DNA of 64,000 bases, taken from NCBI RefSeq assembly GCF_035974275.1, contig NZ_CP142422.1, positions 248,001-312,000 on the forward strand, written 5' to 3'. Within the stretch, counting starts at the first letter, position 1. The number at the start of each line of letters is the position of its first letter. The stretch is from Chryseobacterium sp. MYb264. GTDB taxonomy: Bacteria > Bacteroidota > Bacteroidia > Flavobacteriales > Weeksellaceae. Position numbers and translations under genes: made by a program. Below the pieces are notes generated by a model. It had not been told where the DNA came from. It did not search any database and saw nothing but the letters and a program-made list of their open reading frames with translations. Positions 28,359 through 39,283 of the stretch are shown in pieces.

Positions 28359-30218
28359 ATGGAAATATTACTCATTGTTATTTTGATTGGCGTTGTTTTC
28401 TTTTTTGTTGCCAAATCAAATAAATTAAAGAAAGAATTGCTTCAAAAAGATGCTCAGATCACCAGTTTAAATGTTGAAATCGGGCAACTCAGAACCGAAA
28501 TTTTTAGATTTGAATCTGATACAAGATCATTGAATGATAAAAATAAAAGTTTAAAAACCGAAGTAGCGAATCTTCAGGTTGAAAGAAGAAATTTAGATGC
28601 TAAAATTAGACAGATTCAAACGACTAACGATACTTTAGAAGCTGATAAAGATTTACTTCATGAAAAAAATCAAAGTTTAAAAACGGAAGTGACAAATCTT
28701 AAAATTGAAAGAAGGGATTTAGATATTAAGATTTTAAAAGTTCAAGCTAATAATGACGCTTTAAAGAAATATCAGGATATCATTGATGTAAAAGTGGAGT
28801 GTGACTATCTTTTACAGAAAGCAGAAAAAGACAGTCGAAAATTAATCGAAAGAACACGGCAGGATCTTGTGGATGCCCAAAATGAAGCGAAAGAATCCCG
28901 AAAAGCAACCAAAGAATACAACGAAAAGAAGAATCGCGAAATCGCCTTATTGTTTGAAAATGCAGTAAACGAAGCGAAACGCATTGTTGAAACTGCGGAG
29001 TTAAAAGCCGAATCTATTGGTGGCGATGCGTATCGAAGTTTGAGAGAAGCTGACCAGATTGAAAACAGGATTCAGGCTATGAAAAATGTGATCAAAGGGT
29101 ATGGAAACGAATATTTGGTTCCTACATATACTTTATTGGACGATTTAGCTCGTGATTACAGTCATAAAGAAGCGGGTGAAACATTGAAAAAACTGCGTGA
29201 GAATAATAAGCAGATGATCATTTCCCGACAAGCCGGAATCTGCGAATATATGGATGAAGAAAGAAGAAATACTGCTATCGATTTTGTGATTGATGCTTAC
29301 AACGGAAAGGTAGATTCAATTATGGCATCGGTGAAAAAGGATAATTTCGGAATTTTAAAACAGAAAATAAATGATGCTTTTGAATTGGTGAATTTTAACG
29401 GACTCGCATTTAGAAAAGCAAGAATTTCGGAGATATACCATCATGCAAGGCTTGAAGAACTGAAATGGGCTTCGGTTATTCAGGAATTAAAATCTCAGGA
29501 ACAAGAAGAGCAGCGACAGATTCGTGAGCAAATGCGAGAAGAGGAGAGGGCTCGACGTGATTATGAAAAGGCAATGAAAGAAGCGGAAAAAGAAGAATTA
29601 ACACTTAAAAAACTGATTGAAAAAGCAGAATCTCAAGTGGCGAGGGCAAATGAAGAACAAAAATTGCTTTTCCAACAAAAACTTGATGAATTGCAGCAGA
29701 AATTAGAAGTGGCGGAAGAGAAAAACCAAAGGGCGATTTCTATGGCGCAGCAAACCCGGACAGGAAATGTGTATATTATTTCGAATATTGGCTCTTTTGG
29801 CGAAGATGTTTATAAAATCGGGATGACGAGAAGGCTGGAACCGATGGATCGTGTTCGCGAATTGGGTGATGCGAGTGTACCGTTTGAGTTTGATGTTCAC
29901 GCGATGATCTATTCGGAAGATGCTCCGGCACTTGAAAAACAGCTGCACCGAAAGTTTCTTAAAAGTCAGTTGAATAAAATTAACCCAAGAAAGGAATTCT
30001 TCAGATTAAGCATCAATGATATTAAAAATTATGTTGAATCTATTGGTGTGGCTTGTAAATGGACATTAGCTGCAGAGGCAAAACAGTTCCGCGAAACAAA
30101 AAAACTGGAAGATGAGATGAAAAATAACCGCCAGTTGGAAGCCGATTGGGAACATTATCAGGAAGAAATTAATCCTGTAATTTATGAAGAAGCCGAAATA
30201 GAGGAGGTGGAAATATAA
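28359..30218 (+). CDS. Membrane-anchored DUF4041/GIY-YIG nuclease, SNIPE-like phage-defence candidate
   Basis: The 619-residue protein has one N-terminal membrane helix (2-20), a long coiled coil (about 20-150), a DUF4041-like helical region (about 150-420), a second charged coiled coil (380-465) and a C-terminal Mug113/T5orf172 GIY-YIG nuclease (about 468-570). Key nuclease elements are VYIISN, YKIGMTRR, an Arg in DRVREL and a Glu in ALEKQLHRKF. The same order of membrane helix, DUF4041 and Mug113 nuclease is described for SNIPE, which cuts phage DNA as it is injected. It is a single gene next to a tRNA and repeats. Architecture is seen; the anti-phage role is inferred. Confidence 0.8.
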   Translation: MEILLIVILIGVVFFFVAKSNKLKKELLQKDAQITSLNVEIGQLRTEIFRFESDTRSLNDKNKSLKTEVANLQVERRNLDAKIRQIQTTNDTLEADKDLLHEKNQSLKTEVTNLKIERRDLDIKILKVQANNDALKKYQDIIDVKVECDYLLQKAEKDSRKLIERTRQDLVDAQNEAKESRKATKEYNEKKNREIALLFENAVNEAKRIVETAELKAESIGGDAYRSLREADQIENRIQAMKNVIKGYGNEYLVPTYTLLDDLARDYSHKEAGETLKKLRENNKQMIISRQAGICEYMDEERRNTAIDFVIDAYNGKVDSIMASVKKDNFGILKQKINDAFELVNFNGLAFRKARISEIYHHARLEELKWASVIQELKSQEQEEQRQIREQMREEERARRDYEKAMKEAEKEELTLKKLIEKAESQVARANEEQKLLFQQKLDELQQKLEVAEEKNQRAISMAQQTRTGNVYIISNIGSFGEDVYKIGMTRRLEPMDRVRELGDASVPFEFDVHAMIYSEDAPALEKQLHRKFLKSQLNKINPRKEFFRLSINDIKNYVESIGVACKWTLAAEAKQFRETKKLEDEMKNNRQLEADWEHYQEEINPVIYEEAEIEEVEI

Positions 30219-30780: not shown

Positions 30781-31370
30781 AAATCAACGATACCATCTGT
30801 GGAAAATCTATGCGATCTGTAGAAAAATAAAAATATTCGAGTATCCGTGGCGATAATATGCAGCCCTCAATTTTATCTTTGATAAAATTCTTGCGACTTA
30901 AAAACATAAAGCATTAAAAAATATCTTTGCTGCTTTGCGAAAAAAACCAACAAATAGAGCAGCATCTGTTAAAATCTGCACCATCTGTGGGGAAAAAAAA
31001 ATATTCGAGTATCCGTGGCGATAATATACTGCCCTCAAATTTTATCTTTGATAAAATCCTTGCGACTTAAAAACATAAAAACATAAAAACACCCCCCAAA
31101 AAAATATCTTTGCGGCTTTGCGAAAAAAAACCAACAAATAGAGCAGCATCTTTGAAAATCTGCACGATCTCTGTAGGAAATAAAAATATTCGAGTATCCG
31201 TGGCGATAATATGCAGCCCTCAATTTTATCTTTGATAAAATCCTTGCGTCTTAAAAAACATAAAGTATTAAAAAATATCTTTGCGGCTTTGCAAAAAAAC
31301 CAACAAATAGAGCAGGATCCCCTGTGGGGAATAAAAATATTCGTGCATTCGTGACAAAAAATACATCTTC
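30781..31370. repeat. Degenerate tandem array of about 150-180 bp units
   Basis: Between the tRNA terminator and the second IS5 copy (over 1 kb) there is no gene. The sequence contains about three and a third copies of a unit that begins near AAATATTCGAGTATCC (near 30830, 31000 and 31183, plus a partial near 31333). Each unit contains a hairpin AATTTTATC-TTT-GATAAAATT and the phrases CTTTGCGGCTTTGCG and CAACAAATAGAGCAG. Preceding bases (30620-30720) hold another repeat-like phrase (GCAGATTTTGCAGATG). The words resemble interspersed repeats common in flavobacterial intergenic regions. ORFs seen here are artefacts of the repeat. Confidence 0.65.
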
Positions 31371-31536
31371 CCCCCCCCCCACCCCCCACTAAAACAATTT
31401 CTCCCCAAGTTTTGAAACTGATCCAAAATTGGTAGGAAAAGAGTTTGCAAAAGGAACTTTAACTCGTTGAAGTCATTTAAAACTTTTTTGTGTTATAAAA
31501 CTTTCTTAGTGCAATGACCATAAATGCTAGATAATT

Positions 31537-33036
31537 AGTCATTCCTTAAAAACCAAGTAATATTTTGATTATCAGTTTTATGCACTTATATTTCGTAAAA
31601 AATCGTTGTAAAAAATTGCAATAAATTGTATTTTTAATATAAAAAGTGGCAAAATGTTAGGCAAAATAAGAGAGGATTTACAGCAGAATTTATTCAAGAC
31701 CAGGCTTACGGAGCTTATTAATATGGAGCATCCGGTGGTAAAATTAGCTGGGGAGATTTCCTGGGATAAAATGGAGTCAGAGTTTGAGAAAATTATTTTC
31801 AGAAAACGGAAGACCTTCTACCCCCCCCCACCACACTATCCGTAAAAATAGCAGGAATGCTTTTGCTCAAGGAAATGTTTAAAGAAAGTGATGAAAGTGT
31901 AATAGAGAGATGGATTGAGAATGCGTATTGGCAATATTTTACCGGAGAAACCTTTTTCCAGACAGAGCAGCCTTTCGATCCGAGCAATTTTGTACACTTC
32001 AGAAAAAAGAATTGGAGATAAGGGTTTGGAATTTTCTTTTGGGACAAAGCGTTTCTCTCCATCCCAAAGCCAAAACAGAAGATGAAGTTCAGGTAGATAC
32101 GACGGTTCAGGAGAAGAACATTACCTTTCCTACCGATGCCAAATTAGCAAAAAAAGTAATCGACAATTGTAGAAAAATAGCAGAAAAAGAGAGCGTTGTA
32201 CAAAGACAAAGCTACAGAAGAGTGAGCAAACAATTATTGCGGGACGCTTTTTTTTTTGGACATCATCCCAGAAGACAGAAGAAGGCAAAAATGGCGAGGA
32301 AAAAGCTCAGGACGATTGGTAAAAGAGTTTCTTCGGGAATTGGAAAAAAAACTTCCTAAAGATGTTTTGAAAGGCTACGAAGACGTTTTTAAAATTTACC
32401 TTAAAGCACTCACCCAAGAACGTACCACGAAAGATAAAAATTTACAGTCTTCACGAGCCACAAGTTGCGTGTATTGCGAAAGGAAAATCGGGAAAAGCAT
32501 ACGAGTTTGGGACAAAAGTAGCAGCAGTAAAAGAGGTCGGAAAACAGGGATCATCAGCTCGGTAAAGAGATTTTCTGGCAATCCTCACGATAGTAAAACT
32601 CTTGAAGAATCATTGGCACAGAGTGAGACCCCCCCCACCCCAAAAGAAAATCCGTTGGCGGAACAAGACCTACGAAAGCCACTACAGACAGAGGATTTAA
32701 AGGAATCAAAGAAGTGGGAAGGAACAGCAATTTTGCTTCCCGCAAAAAAAGAAAAACAAAATATGGGCAACAAGTAGCCAGATTAAGATTCCGGGCAAGA
32801 GCAGCCATAGAACCTTGTATCTCTCATTTAAAAAGAAACCACTCCTTAGGATTAAACTTCCTGAAAGGAGTGGCTGGAGATATTAATAATGCATTATTAG
32901 CAGGGATTGGATACAATTTGAAGATGAGATTGAATCAAATCAAACAACAAATTCTTCTTTGGCTCGAACTTGTTCTCCGAATCTTTTTAGGCAAATATAA
33001 TTTTCAAAGTCAAAAAACAGCTTTTTAAGGAGCGAC
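31537..33036 (+). mobile_element. IS5-family insertion sequence, copy 2, degraded
   Basis: This is a second copy of the element at 10034, starting with the same AGTCATTCCTTAAAAA repeat and ending at GGAGCGAC. The final T and the right target duplication are lost in a poly-C run. It differs from copy 1 mainly by added bases in homopolymers and by poly-C replacements at 31821 and 32629. Point substitutions are few, so the two copies were identical recently. Confidence 0.85.
31654..33028 (+). pseudogene. IS5-family transposase, multiply frameshifted
   Basis: The coding sequence matches the intact transposase at 10154 but is broken into pieces by one- to several-base insertions (for example A3 to A4 near 31790, T7 to T10 near 32250, A and T runs near 32010-32040 and 32345) and two poly-C patches. 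The last piece (32714-33028) is in the original frame. If the base calls are right it is inactive. The error pattern suggests that some or all lesions are sequencing artefacts. Confidence 0.8.
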
Positions 33037-33044
33037 CCCCCCCA

Positions 33045-33831
33045 AAAAAGATTTCCAACTAGACCACAGTAGTATCAAACCTATTGAGCAATGATCTAAA
33101 AGCTGTCTAACCAAGCATTTGTTCTTTCCTATAGTATATCTTTGATGGGTATAAAAGCTCATCAAAATAAATCTCGTCTGTATCTGAGCCATTACGCTTA
33201 TTGAAAGCAATATTTGCTATGATATCTTTATTTTCACAATACTTTCTGAAGTTTTGAGCATCAAAACCCTGCATCAGCATTCATAAATAATCCCTTTACA
33301 ACAATATCTGCCTTTTCTAATGTTTGAGTGATCTGATCAAAATAGATTTCAATATGATACAGATCATTATGATTTCCTGCAATAGGGTCTGACATTGCTA
33401 AACCCCCCCCCCCTGTCTATCTGCAAAATAAAGCGAAGTAGTGGTCTTTTCTCTTTTTACAAACCACCCCTTGATAAGCGACCTCTTCTCCTCCCCGTAA
33501 TGCTGATGTATGACTCCCGTCTAAATCTGCACTGGGATAAATCTAATTTCGATTTATTTTTTGATAATAGCTTTATCCAGCAATCTTGCCAAATATTTTT
33601 TACACACCATTTACGAAAATGATAGAAAACACTTTGATAGGTCAAAACATTCTCTGCAAAAAGACTTTTTACAGGTAAATAAGCCCATTGAACCCCTGTT
33701 TTCAGTTTGTATAATATGCAATTTACTATTTCAGCAAGAGGGGCTTTGGGAAAAAATCCTCGTTTTGGCTTAGGAAGATTAGGTACTATTTCATTTTCTA
33801 TTATATCTTTGTCTAGTACTTGGTACATCAT
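33045..33831 (-). pseudogene. Remnant of another IS5-type transposase
   Basis: The N-terminal part (33457-33831) encodes YQVLDKDIIENEIVP, then ILYKLKTGVQWAYLP and SVFYHFRKWC, typical of small IS5-group transposases. Downstream pieces in other frames (about 33045-33230) encode NKRNGSDTDEIYFDELLY and FRSLLNRFDTTVV, the family's C-terminal end. Frames change several times and an 11-base C run lies at 33403. It abuts the broken SPASM maturase gene, whose loss it probably caused. Confidence 0.65.
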
Positions 33832-33899
33832 CGGCTTGATTTGTTTTTTATGTTTCGCAACACAAAAATAAACAAGCCGTTTTTTTTTATATTAAAAGT

Positions 33900-34100
33900 T
33901 TAAATGACTTCATAATTATCAGATTCTAATAGTGATAATAAATTTTCATCTATTGTTTCAAGTCCGACATTATACAATTTATGCAAAGTATCATAGTGAT
34001 TATTGTCTAAAAAAGAAACTTCAGAATTAACAATATCAATTAAAGCTGTTCTTTTATACCCTTTACAGGGTATTATGTCAGCTCTCAGGAAATACTTCAT
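33900..34100 (-). pseudogene. gwsS: N-terminal stump of a grasp-with-spasm SPASM-domain peptide maturase
   Basis: The 66 residues (MKYFLRADIIPCKGYKR...LIDIVNSEV) match the opening of SPASM-domain radical-SAM-like maturases of the grasp-with-spasm RiPP system. Full-length members are several hundred residues, so the catalytic part with its Cys clusters is absent. Sequence beyond the stop runs into an IS5 remnant. Its ATG overlaps the stop of the small ORF upstream (TAATG), indicating translational coupling. The family assignment rests on N-terminal pattern and on the neighbouring ATP-grasp gene. Confidence 0.6.
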
Positions 34101-34276
34101 TACAGATCAATTATTTGAGAGATATTTTTATAATAGTTCAGTGGAACAATCGATTGACCGCCGTATTTTTTAACAGAAATTTTTTCCGGTTTGATAGGTG
34201 TTTTTTCTGATTTTTCTTTATTCTTTATAGTGTTATACTTTCTAACTGTTGCAAACAATAGATTTTTCTCTTTCAT
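34100..34276 (-). CDS. Small coupled ORF between ATP-grasp and SPASM genes (58 aa)
   Basis: The frame is open from 34309, but Met at 34276 (MKEKNLLFATVRKYN) is the likeliest start. It overlaps the end of the ATP-grasp gene by 35 bases, and its TAA overlaps the next ATG. The product is Lys-rich (KNKEKSEKTPIKPEKISVKKYGG) with no recognised domain. It could be an extra precursor-like or adaptor protein of the RiPP locus. Support is the tight overlap on both sides. Confidence 0.45.
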   Translation of the reverse strand: MKEKNLLFATVRKYNTIKNKEKSEKTPIKPEKISVKKYGGQSIVPLNYYKNISQIIDL

Positions 34277-35189
34277 AAATAAATTCAAATATTTTGTTGT
34301 AAACATCAAAGTCTCCTAAAACCTCTATAATGTCGTATTGGCCATGCGGATTAACTTCTAAAAAATAATAATTACCTAAATCATCAATTAATAGATCTAT
34401 TGATCCAAATCTCAGATCCAGCTTCTTCATGAGTTCAATTATTTTTGTTTTAATAGAGGCATCCAGCGCAAACGGCATATCAACATCGTAGCTCTTCTTG
34501 TGTTTAGCTACAGAGAAAATATGCTCATCAATGTATACACTACGAACTTCAATGATATAACTTACAAATTCTTGAGATGTTGAAGGCAGTAACGTTTCTT
34601 GAAATTTATCAAGATCTGTACAGCTCATGATAACAGTTTCATGTTGAAAATATTCCCCCTTTCGAGTTTCTCCTGATAAAAAATCGTTTATGCGCTTAGC
34701 AACAAATATATTTTGAGATCTTTCGGAAAAATATCTTTTAATATCTTTTTTACCGGTTGTAATTATGGAGTTTGGTATTTCAAAACCAAGACTTTTTGCT
34801 ATTTCATTTGTCTTTAGCTTGTTTTCATTATCGTATGGTATTGAAAGATTGGGTGTTTTTTGTAATATAAAAGCTATAAACTCATTTAATTTACGCCACT
34901 CTGAATTTAAAAATAATAAAATCTCTTTGTCGAATTCTTCAAAATCAGATTCAATAAATTCAATACATAAATTCAGATTTGAGGATGACGAGAATATACA
35001 GCTAATTGATTCTAGTATGATATGTTTTTGGTTTATTACCAAAACAGTAGAAGTATCATTATTTTGCTCAACTGAAATCGAATAAATTTTTGTTGGATCG
35101 ATTACTTCAAAATCAATACTTTTAGCTATTAATAAGTCGAAAAGTTTATAATTAGTAAAATTATTTTCAGGATTAAAAATAAGAACCAT
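34242..35189 (-). CDS. gwsG: Grasp-with-spasm ATP-grasp peptide maturase (graspetide ligase)
   Basis: The 315-residue protein is an ATP-grasp ligase of the microviridin/graspetide type. The central part has IFVAKRIND and HETVIMSC strands, and the C-terminal metal-binding motif is YYFLEVNPHGQYD. Such ligases link Ser/Thr/Lys side chains of a precursor peptide to Asp/Glu side chains as macrocyclic esters or amides. Two precursor-like peptides lie upstream on the same strand and the SPASM partner stump lies downstream. The protein itself looks complete, so ester formation could survive the loss of gwsS. Confidence 0.8.
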   Translation of the reverse strand: MVLIFNPENNFTNYKLFDLLIAKSIDFEVIDPTKIYSISVEQNNDTSTVLVINQKHIILESISCIFSSSSNLNLCIEFIESDFEEFDKEILLFLNSEWRKLNEFIAFILQKTPNLSIPYDNENKLKTNEIAKSLGFEIPNSIITTGKKDIKRYFSERSQNIFVAKRINDFLSGETRKGEYFQHETVIMSCTDLDKFQETLLPSTSQEFVSYIIEVRSVYIDEHIFSVAKHKKSYDVDMPFALDASIKTKIIELMKKLDLRFGSIDLLIDDLGNYYFLEVNPHGQYDIIEVLGDFDVYNKIFEFIYEREKSIVCNS

Positions 35190-35222
35190 TTCATTTGTGT
35201 TTAAATTTGTGGACGATAGCTG

Positions 35223-36167
35223 TTAGTCCAGCTCTAAATCTTCACCGATCATACATATTTTTTCTCGTCTTTCATTTAGTTTATCAGGATCAATGACTGG
35301 AGGATAAATTGTTTTACGGTCATCACTTTTATAAATGCCATAAAACTGTTTAGAAATAATACCCGGCAATTGTTGTTTTGTATTTCCAAGTAATTCTTTC
35401 GGATTCTTTTTAATTGCTTCTAGTGACTCATATCCGGTTTTTTTAATATAATAATAATCAAATATTCTTGCAAAATGATATGGGCTTAGATCTTGGTTTT
35501 TTATTGCTTCTTTCAAGTAAGGTAATAAAGTTTCAATTTGATTAGGCTTAAAATGTAACAGAGCCTGTGTAAAGTCGTAAGATATATCAACATGATATAT
35601 GTTCAAGTCTTGACCACTTACAGAAATTCCCGGCCATTTTCTTATCTGATTAATAATCCCAATAAGTTTAGTATAATTTTTATTATTTCTCTCTTCTCTT
35701 TTTTTATTTCCTACAAGTACAGACTGAGATTTCTTATCATCTTCATGTATTTCATTAAGTAATTTTGCGATTTCATTATTTTTAGCTGAAGATGTAGTAT
35801 TCTTAAGATTTTCTTTTATAATACTTTTGTCTATACAAGAGGGAGCTTCATTAAGTATTGTATTAATACTAACTCCATTGGATATTAACATTTTAGAAAC
35901 AGATACAAAACGATCTTCCTTACAGTTTTTTGCATAAACTTTTAATGAAAAAAAGAGGTCAACAGACAATGGCTTGCTGTTTGATGACAGAGCTTTTTGG
36001 ATCAAAGAATCCAAAACTACAAAGTCTGTTGACCCTTGATTATATTTTAGTTTAGCGCTGTTGAAATTCCCATAATAAGGAGAGCAAGTAAAATCTTCAA
36101 AATTATTTTTTTGAGCATACAAGAACCCTATATTAAGGGTACAGAAAAATAATATTATTTTTTTCAT
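35223..36167 (-). CDS. Secreted protein of the RiPP cluster, function unknown
   Basis: The ATG at 36165-36167 gives a clean signal peptide (MKKIILFFCTLNIGFLYAQ); the longer frame from 36188 would overlap the precursor gene. The 314-residue protein is mainly helical with Cys at several positions, and its C-terminal half (ARIFDYYYIKKTGYESLEAI) may contain a small helical repeat. No family recognised. It is encoded between the second precursor and the ATP-grasp ligase, so a role in processing, export or sensing of the peptide product is plausible. Confidence 0.65.
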   Translation of the reverse strand: MKKIILFFCTLNIGFLYAQKNNFEDFTCSPYYGNFNSAKLKYNQGSTDFVVLDSLIQKALSSNSKPLSVDLFFSLKVYAKNCKEDRFVSVSKMLISNGVSINTILNEAPSCIDKSIIKENLKNTTSSAKNNEIAKLLNEIHEDDKKSQSVLVGNKKREERNNKNYTKLIGIINQIRKWPGISVSGQDLNIYHVDISYDFTQALLHFKPNQIETLLPYLKEAIKNQDLSPYHFARIFDYYYIKKTGYESLEAIKKNPKELLGNTKQQLPGIISKQFYGIYKSDDRKTIYPPVIDPDKLNERREKICMIGEDLELD

Positions 36168-36181
36168 TGCAACAGCATTTT

Positions 36182-36352
36182 TTAGCACTCCTGTACTTTT
36201 ATCTTACGAAGAGAACCATCGTTATTGTCAATATAAGTAATAGTAATACAAGTACCATCATTAGCGCTACCTTGTACCACGTCTTTAGTTCTAGCACCCA
36301 TCACTTTGGACATTGCTAATGAATTAAGTTGATTTTGTTTTAATTTTTCCAT
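36182..36352 (-). CDS. RiPP precursor peptide 2 (56 aa)
   Basis: This gene encodes MEKLKQNQLNSLAMSKVMGA, then RTKDVVQGSANDGTCITI and a C-terminal tail with TYIDNNDG and KVQEC. It shares its layout with peptide 1: a Lys/Asn leader, a V(L/M)G(S/A)R(S/T)K junction, then a core with Cys, Thr, ID-N-(N/D)-G and a Val/Glu tail. Thr and Asp/Glu in the core are suitable for side-chain ester or amide links by the ATP-grasp ligase. It sits 14 bases after peptide 1. Confidence 0.7.
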   Translation of the reverse strand: MEKLKQNQLNSLAMSKVMGARTKDVVQGSANDGTCITITYIDNNDGSLRKIKVQEC

Positions 36353-36366
36353 TATTAAATATTTTT

Positions 36367-36561
36367 TTAATTACCGTTACTTTCTACGTATCTAACTTTT
36401 ACAACAACAGTTCCGTTATTTCTATCAATTGTAGTTACTTCTGCGCAATTTGGTCCTCCCATATCAAGCATTTGAACACTTTTTGATCTTGAACCAAGAA
36501 CCTGAGCATACTGATTTTTAGTTAGCTCATGTCCCATGAACTTTTCTAATTTGTTTGTCAT
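36367..36561 (-). CDS. RiPP precursor peptide 1 (64 aa)
   Basis: The 64-residue peptide starts MTNKLEKFMGHELTKNQYAQ, followed by VLGSRSKSV, then a core with GGPNCAEVTTIDRNNG and a tail VVKVRYVESNGN. The match with peptide 2 across the junction and core (VxGxRxKxV, Cys, T-x-ID-x-N-x-G, KV, E) shows they are paralogues. It is the first gene of the minus-strand operon and follows a promoter-like element at 36664. Confidence 0.7.
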   Translation of the reverse strand: MTNKLEKFMGHELTKNQYAQVLGSRSKSVQMLDMGGPNCAEVTTIDRNNGTVVVKVRYVESNGN

Positions 36562-36663
36562 TTTTTTGAATTATGAATTTAATAAAATATTTTTGTCATA
36601 CAATCCCTGACATGGGCTTTGCTGATCAGCATTTTATATTCATACTTTTGTACTGTACACATA

Positions 36664-36694
36664 CAAAAATAAAATATTTGTGTTTTTACCTGAA
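36664..36694 (-). promoter_or_regulatory. Candidate promoter of the RiPP operon
   Basis: On the minus strand TATTTTTG (36664-36671) matches the -7 consensus TAnnTTTG. A CTTTGC lies about 20 bases upstream (near 36690-36695), in place for the -33 TTTG. The start codon of peptide 1 is about 100 bases downstream. Confidence 0.5.
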
Positions 36695-36739
36695 GCAAAG
36701 ATGCAGCAAGATCGAATGACTATGCAAGTGATTGATTCC

Positions 36740-36777
36740 TAAATTCATGAATTTACGCATATAAATTCATGAATTTA
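36740..36777. promoter_or_regulatory. Twin 16-bp perfect palindromes upstream of the RiPP operon
   Basis: TAAATTCATGAATTTA occurs twice (36740-36755 and 36762-36777), each a perfect palindrome, 22 bases apart, about two helical turns. They lie about 45-80 bases upstream of the candidate -33 element. This is the expected layout for an activator dimer pair. The regulator is unknown; the broken HTH protein at 37441 is a candidate. Confidence 0.65.
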
Positions 36778-36879
36778 TGGTATATAAAGTATTGTAAAAA
36801 AGCTATTTACGTTATTTTTAAAGTATTAAACCATAATCTTTTCAATTTCTTTTAAATATATAGAAAGTGGTGTTCCTGT

Positions 36880-36959
<80 letters not shown>

Positions 36960-37440: not shown

Positions 37441-38061
37441 TTATCCTGGACTATCCAGAAAATCTTCCAGCCTAATATCTTTTCCCAAACCAAACTTTTG
37501 CTTAAGCCTGTATTTAAAAATTCTAGCACTATGAGGTTCCACCGAAAGAGTTTGTGCAATCTGATTAGTAGACATCTTAAAGTAAATAAAAGTACAGTAT
37601 TTCAAATCTAAAGGATTGAGATTTTGTATTTTCTTCTTATTAAGTTTGTTGAAAAAATCAGGATGAATATCCTGCAACTGTTTTCTTGTGTGTTCAAAAT
37701 CTGCGTTAGAAAGCATTTCCTCTTTTATCAGTTTTTTTAAGTCAAAACTTGTACTCTCACCTTGATCAATTTCATGACTGATTTTTTGCAGCATTTTATT
37801 CTTATGTTCTATAATTACTGAGTTTGCCAAAGCCTCCTTTTCTAACTGATTTTTTTTAAGTTCCAGCAATTCCTGTTCGGCTTTTAACCTAGCTTGTTCC
37901 TCTTTTTCTATTTTAATCTGGAGTACACTTTTTTCAAGCACATCATTTTTATCGGATTGTAGTTTTTTCTCTCTTTCTACTGAATAGCGTAGTTTGAAAT
38001 AATAGGAAATGCATATAAATACTAAGCCAATATAATTGCTACAAAAAGACCTGCATAAAGC
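37441..38061 (-). pseudogene. C-terminal half of a membrane-linked LuxR-like HTH regulator
   Basis: The frame runs without a stop from the IS4 edge at 38061 to 37441. It encodes a membrane helix (IGLVFICISYYF), a coiled coil and a C-terminal HTH (LDLKYCTFIYFKMSTNQIAQ, then SVEPHSARIFKYRLKQKF). This is the usual C-terminal layout of Bacteroidota TPR-TM-coil-HTH regulators. The N-terminal TPR sensor is lost at the IS4 junction. In Chryseobacterium-like genomes such regulators often neighbour RiPP loci, which is inference here. Confidence 0.7.
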
Positions 38062-39283
38062 TAGTCATGGTCGGAAGAAAAATCTTCCGACTTTTTTGTT
38101 TTATCACCATCTTTCGGCTACTACTAAAGTGGATCATTACAGTAAGGTTTTGCACGGCAAAAAAATGTTCTATCTTCTCTTGTTCTGCATCTTTGATAAC
38201 GAAAAACTAAGTCAGAGAACTTTGGAAGATACATTTAACAGCAGCGGGTTCAAAGCACTTTTTGTTTTGGGGGAAGCAGAGAAAATTCGAAGAAGCTCAA
38301 TCTCAGAGAGACTTTCCAGAATCGATTCTAATTATTTCAAAGAGATCTATGAGCATATGTACACAAGATTTTCGGAACTTTATTCTAAGACCGAAATCGA
38401 AAAATACAACTTAATCAGAGTAGACAGCACTATTGTTGCAGATACCTGTAATAAGCTCAAAGAAGGAATCGATCAGAAAGTAGGAAAAAGCTGGTGAAAT
38501 TCAGTTTTTCGTTTGATGGAATTTTACCTTCGGCAGTAGAGGTTTTTACGGGACAAAAATATTCGGCAGAAGACAATGCACTTGCCGAAGCTGTTTTGAA
38601 ACAGATAAAAAAAGAAGAACATCACCATAATATTTATACCATAGACAGGGGATTGCAATCCACCAGAACAATGAAAGAGTTTGAAGAGAAGTGCATGAAA
38701 TTTATTATTCGCTCCAAAGAAAACAGAAAATTTGAAGAGATTGAATCTTTTCTTGAAACAGAAAATATTCTAAAATGGAATGACTGGAAAGTCATCAAAG
38801 ACAGTAAAGTAAAACTTTATACCGGAAAACCTATTCAAAACAAGCGTGGAAACATCCATCATCGGGAAGAAAAAGTAGAGACCTGTTTTCGCTTGCTGGT
38901 CATCAAAAATGAAAAAACAAACAAAGAATTTTGGTTTCTAACCAATGAGTTTGAGCTCTCTGCAAGAGAAATATCGGACTACTACCGTAAAAGATGGGAT
39001 ATTGAAGTGTTTTTCAGGTTTATGAAACAGGAGCTTAATTTAATTCATCTTATTTCACTCAATAAAAACGGAATTGAAGTAATGGTTTATATGACAATGA
39101 TTGCTTCTATGTTGTTATTAATCTATAAAAAAGCAAACAGTTTAGGTTATAAAACCGCAAAAAGGCGCATCACAATGGAACTTCGAGATATGATTACCGC
39201 GATTTTAATCGTCTTCGCAGGTGGTGATCCTGCTAAAGTATTTAAAACATAAAAATGGTCGGAATTTCTTCCGACCACGACTA
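38062..39283 (+). mobile_element. IS4-family insertion sequence
   Basis: The 1222-base element has ends TAGTCATGGTCGGAAGA and, inverted, TAGTCGTGGTCGGAAGA. Inside each end is a further short hairpin of TCGGAAG/CTTCCGA. No target duplication is seen, and the two flanks belong to different broken genes, so the element most likely marks a deletion or recombination between two copies. Confidence 0.8.
38096..39252 (+). pseudogene. IS4-family transposase with one frameshift
   Basis: The N-terminal part (from a TTG at 38096; VDHYSKVLHGKKMFYLLLF, IRVDSTIVADT) ends at a stop at 38495-38497. The rest begins at 38494 in the next frame (KFSFSFDGILPSAVEVF, YTIDRGLQSTR, YYRKRWDIEVFFRFMKQELNL). The DDE residues and IS4 YREK signature are present. 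One extra A in the A5 run near 38480 would join both parts as GKKLVKFSF. The lesion is either a real mutation or a base-calling error. Confidence 0.8.

Follow-up and report, generated by a model that had tools for sequence, protein, structure and literature searches.

A grasp-with-spasm-like operon with a divergent ATP-grasp protein and a truncated SPASM gene in Chryseobacterium sp. MYb264

Grasp-with-spasm systems combine an ATP-grasp ligase (TIGR04192) with a SPASM protein (TIGR04193). Sections of PMC8939145 describe a layout of this kind as "branch 5" loci, apply a radical-SAM label to the SPASM partner, and report small "LPL" proteins that are encoded directly upstream of the SPASM enzymes. 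The counterpart in parts of PMC13097080 is "group 14", and the same parts call a D-x-R ("DFR") motif critical for graspetide synthetases. Here we describe an operon with a similar layout from Chryseobacterium sp. MYb264. The genome is assembled as one 5.23-Mb contig, and the window that we analyzed is a 64,000-nucleotide stretch of it (positions 248001–312000); coordinates are window positions unless given in Mb.

We propose that this operon once made a peptide that was modified by both its ATP-grasp enzyme and its SPASM enzyme, with the active site of the ligase having been rebuilt. We see the case for this proposal as close to evenly balanced.

Operon layout and peptide genes

Six tightly spaced genes run along the minus strand from 36561 to 33900. 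In order, these are precursor-like peptide 1 (64 amino acids, 36367..36561); precursor-like peptide 2 (56 amino acids, 36182..36352), its paralogue; a signal-like protein of 314 amino acids (35223..36167); a divergent ATP-grasp protein of 315 amino acids (34242..35189); a 58-amino-acid open reading frame (ORF; 34100..34276); and the N-terminal stump of a SPASM gene, with 62 native codons (33913..34100). The gaps between the first four genes are 14, 14, and 33 bases. The end of the ATP-grasp gene and the start of the 58-amino-acid ORF overlap by 35 bases, and a TAATG couples the stop of that ORF to the start of the stump. The five ORFs upstream of the stump are all open and contain no C-runs of 8 or more. 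A first-pass annotation, made from the letters alone, had described an ATP-grasp protein, a SPASM-like stump, a secreted-type protein, and two small paralogous peptides on one strand, and the ORFs and the matches to TIGR04192 and TIGR04193 bear this out. The 58-codon ORF (34276–34100) was missing from its gene list.

The same annotation was right about the motifs of the two peptides: both carry V-x-G-x-R-x-K-x-V, an aligned cysteine, and T-x-I-D-x-N-x-G. The peptides are 29% identical with 16 invariant columns, so their paralogy is weak but patterned. A search with both of them gave five related proteins from five candidates, all with E ≤ 3.6e-19: P0031 and P0032 are relatives of peptide 1, and P0033–P0035 are relatives of peptide 2. 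The outer V positions of the first motif are lost in P0035. No source is listed for P0033, which may be a cluster that includes the peptide of the window itself. In C. gallinarum, P0034 is M9991_00380; the adjacent locus tags are 00375 (P0023, a homologue of the signal-like protein) and 00370 (P0005, a homologue of the ATP-grasp protein), so that a conserved precursor-like gene lies at a related ATP-grasp locus. The same gene types are apparently together on further contigs of 48767, 72982, 690350, and 6735 (linked by equal contig size). Because five related proteins were found, one of them beside homologues of the signal-like and ATP-grasp proteins in C. gallinarum, we take the two peptides to be real genes and not chance ORFs. 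Judged by gene content, peptide, signal-like protein, and ATP-grasp protein recur together in Chryseobacterium relatives. The peptides themselves had no family match, and a peptide profile search of 173 genomes matched only the genome they come from.

The window peptides do not have the GG-type leader end of a grasp-with-spasm precursor. In all seven peptides of the clade, including the window's two, GG is replaced by G-[SA]-R-[ST]-K, while all seven sister-type precursors that we compared have a GG leader. By eye, the window and the compared operons have a leader pattern in common, L-x-N-x(4,5)-V-x-G-[GSA].

The signal-like protein has a helical, TPR-like N-terminal part. It matches the signal-like proteins of compared loci in the genus at the profile level (probability 85.6, E 5.6e-6). 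None of the 12 signal-like family members that we scanned matched Pfam PF20329 (DUF6624 secreted partners); the protein at the equivalent position in locus L021 matched it weakly (E 1.6e-4, below the cut-off).

The 58-amino-acid ORF lies directly before the SPASM gene, which is the position of the "LPL" small proteins, and a small gene occupies the same place in 15 compared operons and in L004, a second operon of this genome (see below). By eye, its sequence has no L-P-L-like signature, and it had no family match. Near its end, Y-Y-K-N-I is similar (by eye only) to the F-[YH]-K-[NKS]-I seen in L004, L012, L014, L021, and L022.

The ATP-grasp protein and its clade

The best NCBIfam match of the ATP-grasp protein is TIGR04192 (E 3.9e-29), at 102 bits where the cut-off is 230, and its predicted ATP-grasp fold is close to those of solved graspetide ligases. 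A search with it gave 16 proteins: seven at 54–90% identity over 97–100% of the query, the partial P0011 (57% identity over 58%), and eight at no more than 30% identity. Two of the relatives (P0004 and P0005) are annotated as "hypothetical protein".

The clade is set apart by two missing motifs. The D-x-R loop is present in none of the eight full-length clade members (the window ligase included) versus 37 of the 38 other ligases that we compared, the single exception being P0017, which has D-I-K. The N-terminal [WFY]-x-R motif is found in 0 of 9 clade members versus 37 of 37 others. The clade also has invariant residues of its own, namely F-S-[ST]-S-S-N-[LM]-N-L, H183, H282, and D286, and the ATP-site and metal residues are retained in every clade member that has letters at those positions. 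A narrow look at sections of PMC8939145, PMC13097080, and PMC12291112 found nothing there about ligase clades that lack the DFR motif. Because the whole clade is without both motifs, it cannot be assumed that the ligase still works. The first-pass annotation had suggested that only the ligase may still be active, which now seems doubtful. As far as the residues go, either the chemistry of the ligase has been rebuilt or the protein only binds.

If the chemistry has been rebuilt, as we propose, then V-x-G-[SA]-R-[ST]-K in the leader would be what the ATP-grasp enzyme binds, along with ATP. In the manner of graspetide ligases, the enzyme would then activate an acidic side chain in the core (in the conserved I-D) so that a neighboring side chain can attack it, but its active site would have been rebuilt to do without the usual arginine loop. 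The SPASM protein would have worked on this core, in which a cysteine is conserved, together with the ligase or after it. If the assembly is right, the strain would now make at most a ligase-only product.

If the protein only binds, then the clade's ATP-grasp protein would keep ATP and leader binding without ligation and, as a carrier or partner, would present the peptide for the SPASM protein to act on. The loss of both motifs across the clade favors this, as does D-W-R at that place in four solved ligases, and parts of PMC13097080 report partner-dependent graspetide systems. However, the ATP-site and metal residues are kept, and P0017, with its D-I-K, shows that descent does not strictly demand D-x-R. 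We consider a non-ligating partner unlikely, but a serious alternative. We also considered that a small Chryseobacterium-type clade converted a graspetide ligase to a different ATP-using enzyme, which would have dropped both arginine motifs, gained invariant residues of its own, and acted on peptides with G-[SA]-R-[ST]-K leaders to make a modification that is not yet described. This seems rather unlikely to us.

Several observations weigh against our proposal that the ligase was rebuilt and worked with a SPASM enzyme. The loss of the D-x-R loop is a reason to suspect that the clade does not ligate at all, and the window leader is without GG. In the motif region (residues 71–90), confidence in the structural models is low, with mean pLDDT (predicted local distance difference test) of 52 and 60. 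In a FastTree tree of 45 ligases with a midpoint root, the clade sits on a long branch with support of 1.0 and groups with 13 ligases that have no SPASM neighbor (support 0.905) and does not nest among the SPASM-linked ligases. A SPASM neighbor of a clade ligase is known from the window locus alone, and poor local sequence (see below) may also have affected the SPASM junction.

The clade was found in few places. Some ligase match at E ≤ 1e-10 was present in 151 of 173 genomes of the genus. The clade's ligase profile found only the genome of MYb264 among 320 genomes of the family (E ≤ 1e-40) and, again, only this genome among 395 genomes sampled from the order (E ≤ 1e-30). Scans of genome contigs with the ligase and signal-like alignments gave 114 and 11 pattern matches, respectively, with none confirmed by tblastn. 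A scan of viral contigs for clade relatives gave 49 pattern matches, again with none confirmed, and a plasmid scan gave only remote ligases (identity below 60% and query coverage below 80% in every case). Graspetide genome mining rests on ligase profiles and on leader and core motifs, and the clade falls far below the ligase cut-off. The clade is a natural test of the need for D-x-R: it holds either a ligase that works without the motif or an ATP-grasp protein that is kept as a non-ligating partner.

The SPASM stump and the insertion sequences

The 66-amino-acid stump matches positions 2–53 of TIGR04193 (E 1.1e-6) at 28 bits, below the cut-off of 175. This is the similarity to SPASM maturases that the first-pass annotation had asserted. 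The SPASM gene follows the ligase gene, as it does in nine compared loci of the genus (L007, L008, L011, L015, L016, L017, L019, L020, and L028). Only 62 native codons of the reading frame remain; its final residues and the stop (33902–33900) are contributed by the end of an insertion sequence (IS). There is no full-length SPASM partner near the window ligase. In a TIGR04193 search of the 5.23-Mb genome, the only intact gene was at 2.84 Mb; otherwise the search found a C-terminal piece (3.73 Mb) and, in the window, just the stump. It found the middle part of the window gene nowhere else in the assembly.

The word "maturase" itself is open to doubt. Because CxxxCxxC is missing from the first 150 residues of all 16 full SPASM partners of the compared ligases (L007–L031), these partners may not be radical SAM enzymes, and their chemistry as maturases is unproven. 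The stump's resemblance to TIGR04193 stands, but this part of the earlier label is in doubt.

The stump is abutted by an IS5-family element (31468..33912, no strand assigned), which meets SPASM codon 62 at the junction 33912/33913. By BLAST against other copies, it runs from inverted repeat to inverted repeat (31468–31501 and 33879–33912; inverted repeat I1), and it matches NF033580 (E 1.1e-8, 35 of 110 bits) and PF13340. It is split by a second IS5-family element on the plus strand (31531..33036). Two copies of this nested element at 3.73 Mb (97% identity) keep an open reading frame, and an intact copy scores 411 bits against NF033578 (cut-off 275). We rejected an IS1182-like assignment, which reached only 84.5 of 270 bits. 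The first-pass annotation had blamed an IS5 remnant for removing most of the SPASM gene. An IS5-family element does cut the gene, but in extent it is not a remnant: it is an end-to-end element that has been split by another.

The far flank of the outer element is an intergenic repeat region with no SPASM sequence. An 80-base intergenic repeat occurs there three times (30825–31257), at spacings of 168 and 185 bases, and part of it recurs near another IS5 copy (L045/L047). At 3.73 Mb, the IS5-family element with a 446-amino-acid transposase occurs twice, head-to-tail (L005 4508–7454). We asked whether recombination between IS copies moved the rest of the SPASM gene to 3.73 Mb, and rejected this: the piece there directly follows another signal-like gene and small peptide gene. 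That cluster (L005 8060–9136, about 3.732–3.733 Mb) has a GG-containing 74-amino-acid ORF and a signal-like ORF, followed directly by a SPASM gene that is reduced to its C-terminal end. It has no ligase at E ≤ 1e-10 (the genome has two ligase matches). The 3.73-Mb piece is probably part of a separate cluster, apparently a third and fragmentary one in this genome, although it may have come from the window gene.

The truncation of the SPASM gene and the broken IS frames could also be assembly artifacts, with the living strain having a complete operon. Six of the genome's 17 C-runs of at least 8 lie in one 5.6-kb part of the window (31370–36959), as do all three of its C-runs of at least 11 (11, 11, and 40 C), and all of the six are on the plus strand; this cluster is likely an artifact of assembly or polishing. 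If the C-run blocks are set aside, 10 indels but only 2 single substitutions separate the nested element from an intact copy. Similarly, the outer element has 18 inserted bases relative to copies that differ among themselves by 1 substitution and end gaps. Such differences are more suggestive of uncorrected sequence than of old decay. Furthermore, the window copy of the outer element has no 3-bp flanking repeats, but by eye these are also absent from three of six other full copies (and present in the other three). The junction at 33912/33913 is clean, and apart from the intact paralogue the TIGR04193 search found no SPASM middle part elsewhere. On balance, we doubt that artifacts account for both the truncation and the broken frames and that the living strain has a complete operon. 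The "degraded" appearance of the window is nonetheless partly an assembly matter: the SPASM gene is truncated in the assembly, as the first-pass annotation had it, but the IS frames are broken in a way that suggests errors of sequencing or assembly at this place.

Taken at face value, the loss of the SPASM gene, the IS elements on both sides, and the further fragmentary cluster at 3.73 Mb would fit an ordinary grasp-with-spasm locus that has fully decayed and has no function. We think this is improbable. The five upstream ORFs are intact, and the odd features of the ligase are common to relatives at 53–90% identity and are therefore older than any decay in this strain.

Nearby in the window, a 166-amino-acid ORF (37441–37941) weakly matches the C-terminal part of NCBIfam BT3442_fam (E 6e-6, far below the cut-off). 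An IS4-type transposase ORF (38494–39252; 105.8 of 115 bits) lies beside it. On the other side of the operon, 28359–30218 encodes a 619-amino-acid T5orf172/MUG113/DUF4041 protein.

Comparison with known systems

The first-pass annotation had filed the operon under grasp-with-spasm. The layout and the TIGR04193-like stump agree with this, but the scores and motifs do not. Because the ligase scores below the cut-off of TIGR04192, GG is replaced in the leaders, no L-P-L is seen by eye, and the ligase is placed apart in the tree, we would treat the operon as a variant with a grasp-with-spasm layout and not as a member.

As in grasp-with-spasm systems, the order is peptide, secreted-type protein, ATP-grasp protein, small protein, and SPASM protein; the stump matches TIGR04193; and the cores hold threonine, aspartate, and a conserved cysteine. 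In the nine compared loci, a signal-like protein of about 350 amino acids overlaps the start of the ligase, a 51–54-amino-acid ORF overlaps its end, and the SPASM gene follows; a GG-leader peptide gene lies upstream in all seven of these loci that were extended. In contrast, the window ligase reaches only 102 of 230 bits and has neither D-x-R nor [WFY]-x-R, GG in the leaders gives way to G-[SA]-R-[ST]-K, and the SPASM gene is truncated.

The solved graspetide ligases are MdnC, MdnB, AMdnB, CdnC (chryseoviridin), PruB, and PsnB. In the four that we aligned by sequence (16–21% identity), D-W-R lies within a 12–14-residue loop that the clade ligases miss.

The same genome also has an intact grasp-with-spasm operon (L004 6945–10418; G000:C1, about 2.837–2.840 Mb), in which the peptide, ligase, small protein, and SPASM genes are in the same order as in the window. 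Its ligase (249 bits) and its SPASM protein (260 bits) are both above their cut-offs. Unlike the window ligase, to which it is 26% identical, the L004 ligase keeps both arginine motifs, and the signal-like protein of L004 belongs to the GLPGLI family. The sister-type operons L060–L066 resemble the window operon in having a signal-like protein of the same broad profile, a similar leader pattern, and cysteine-containing cores, but they have GG leaders (7 of 7) and longer cores, and they keep D-x-R.

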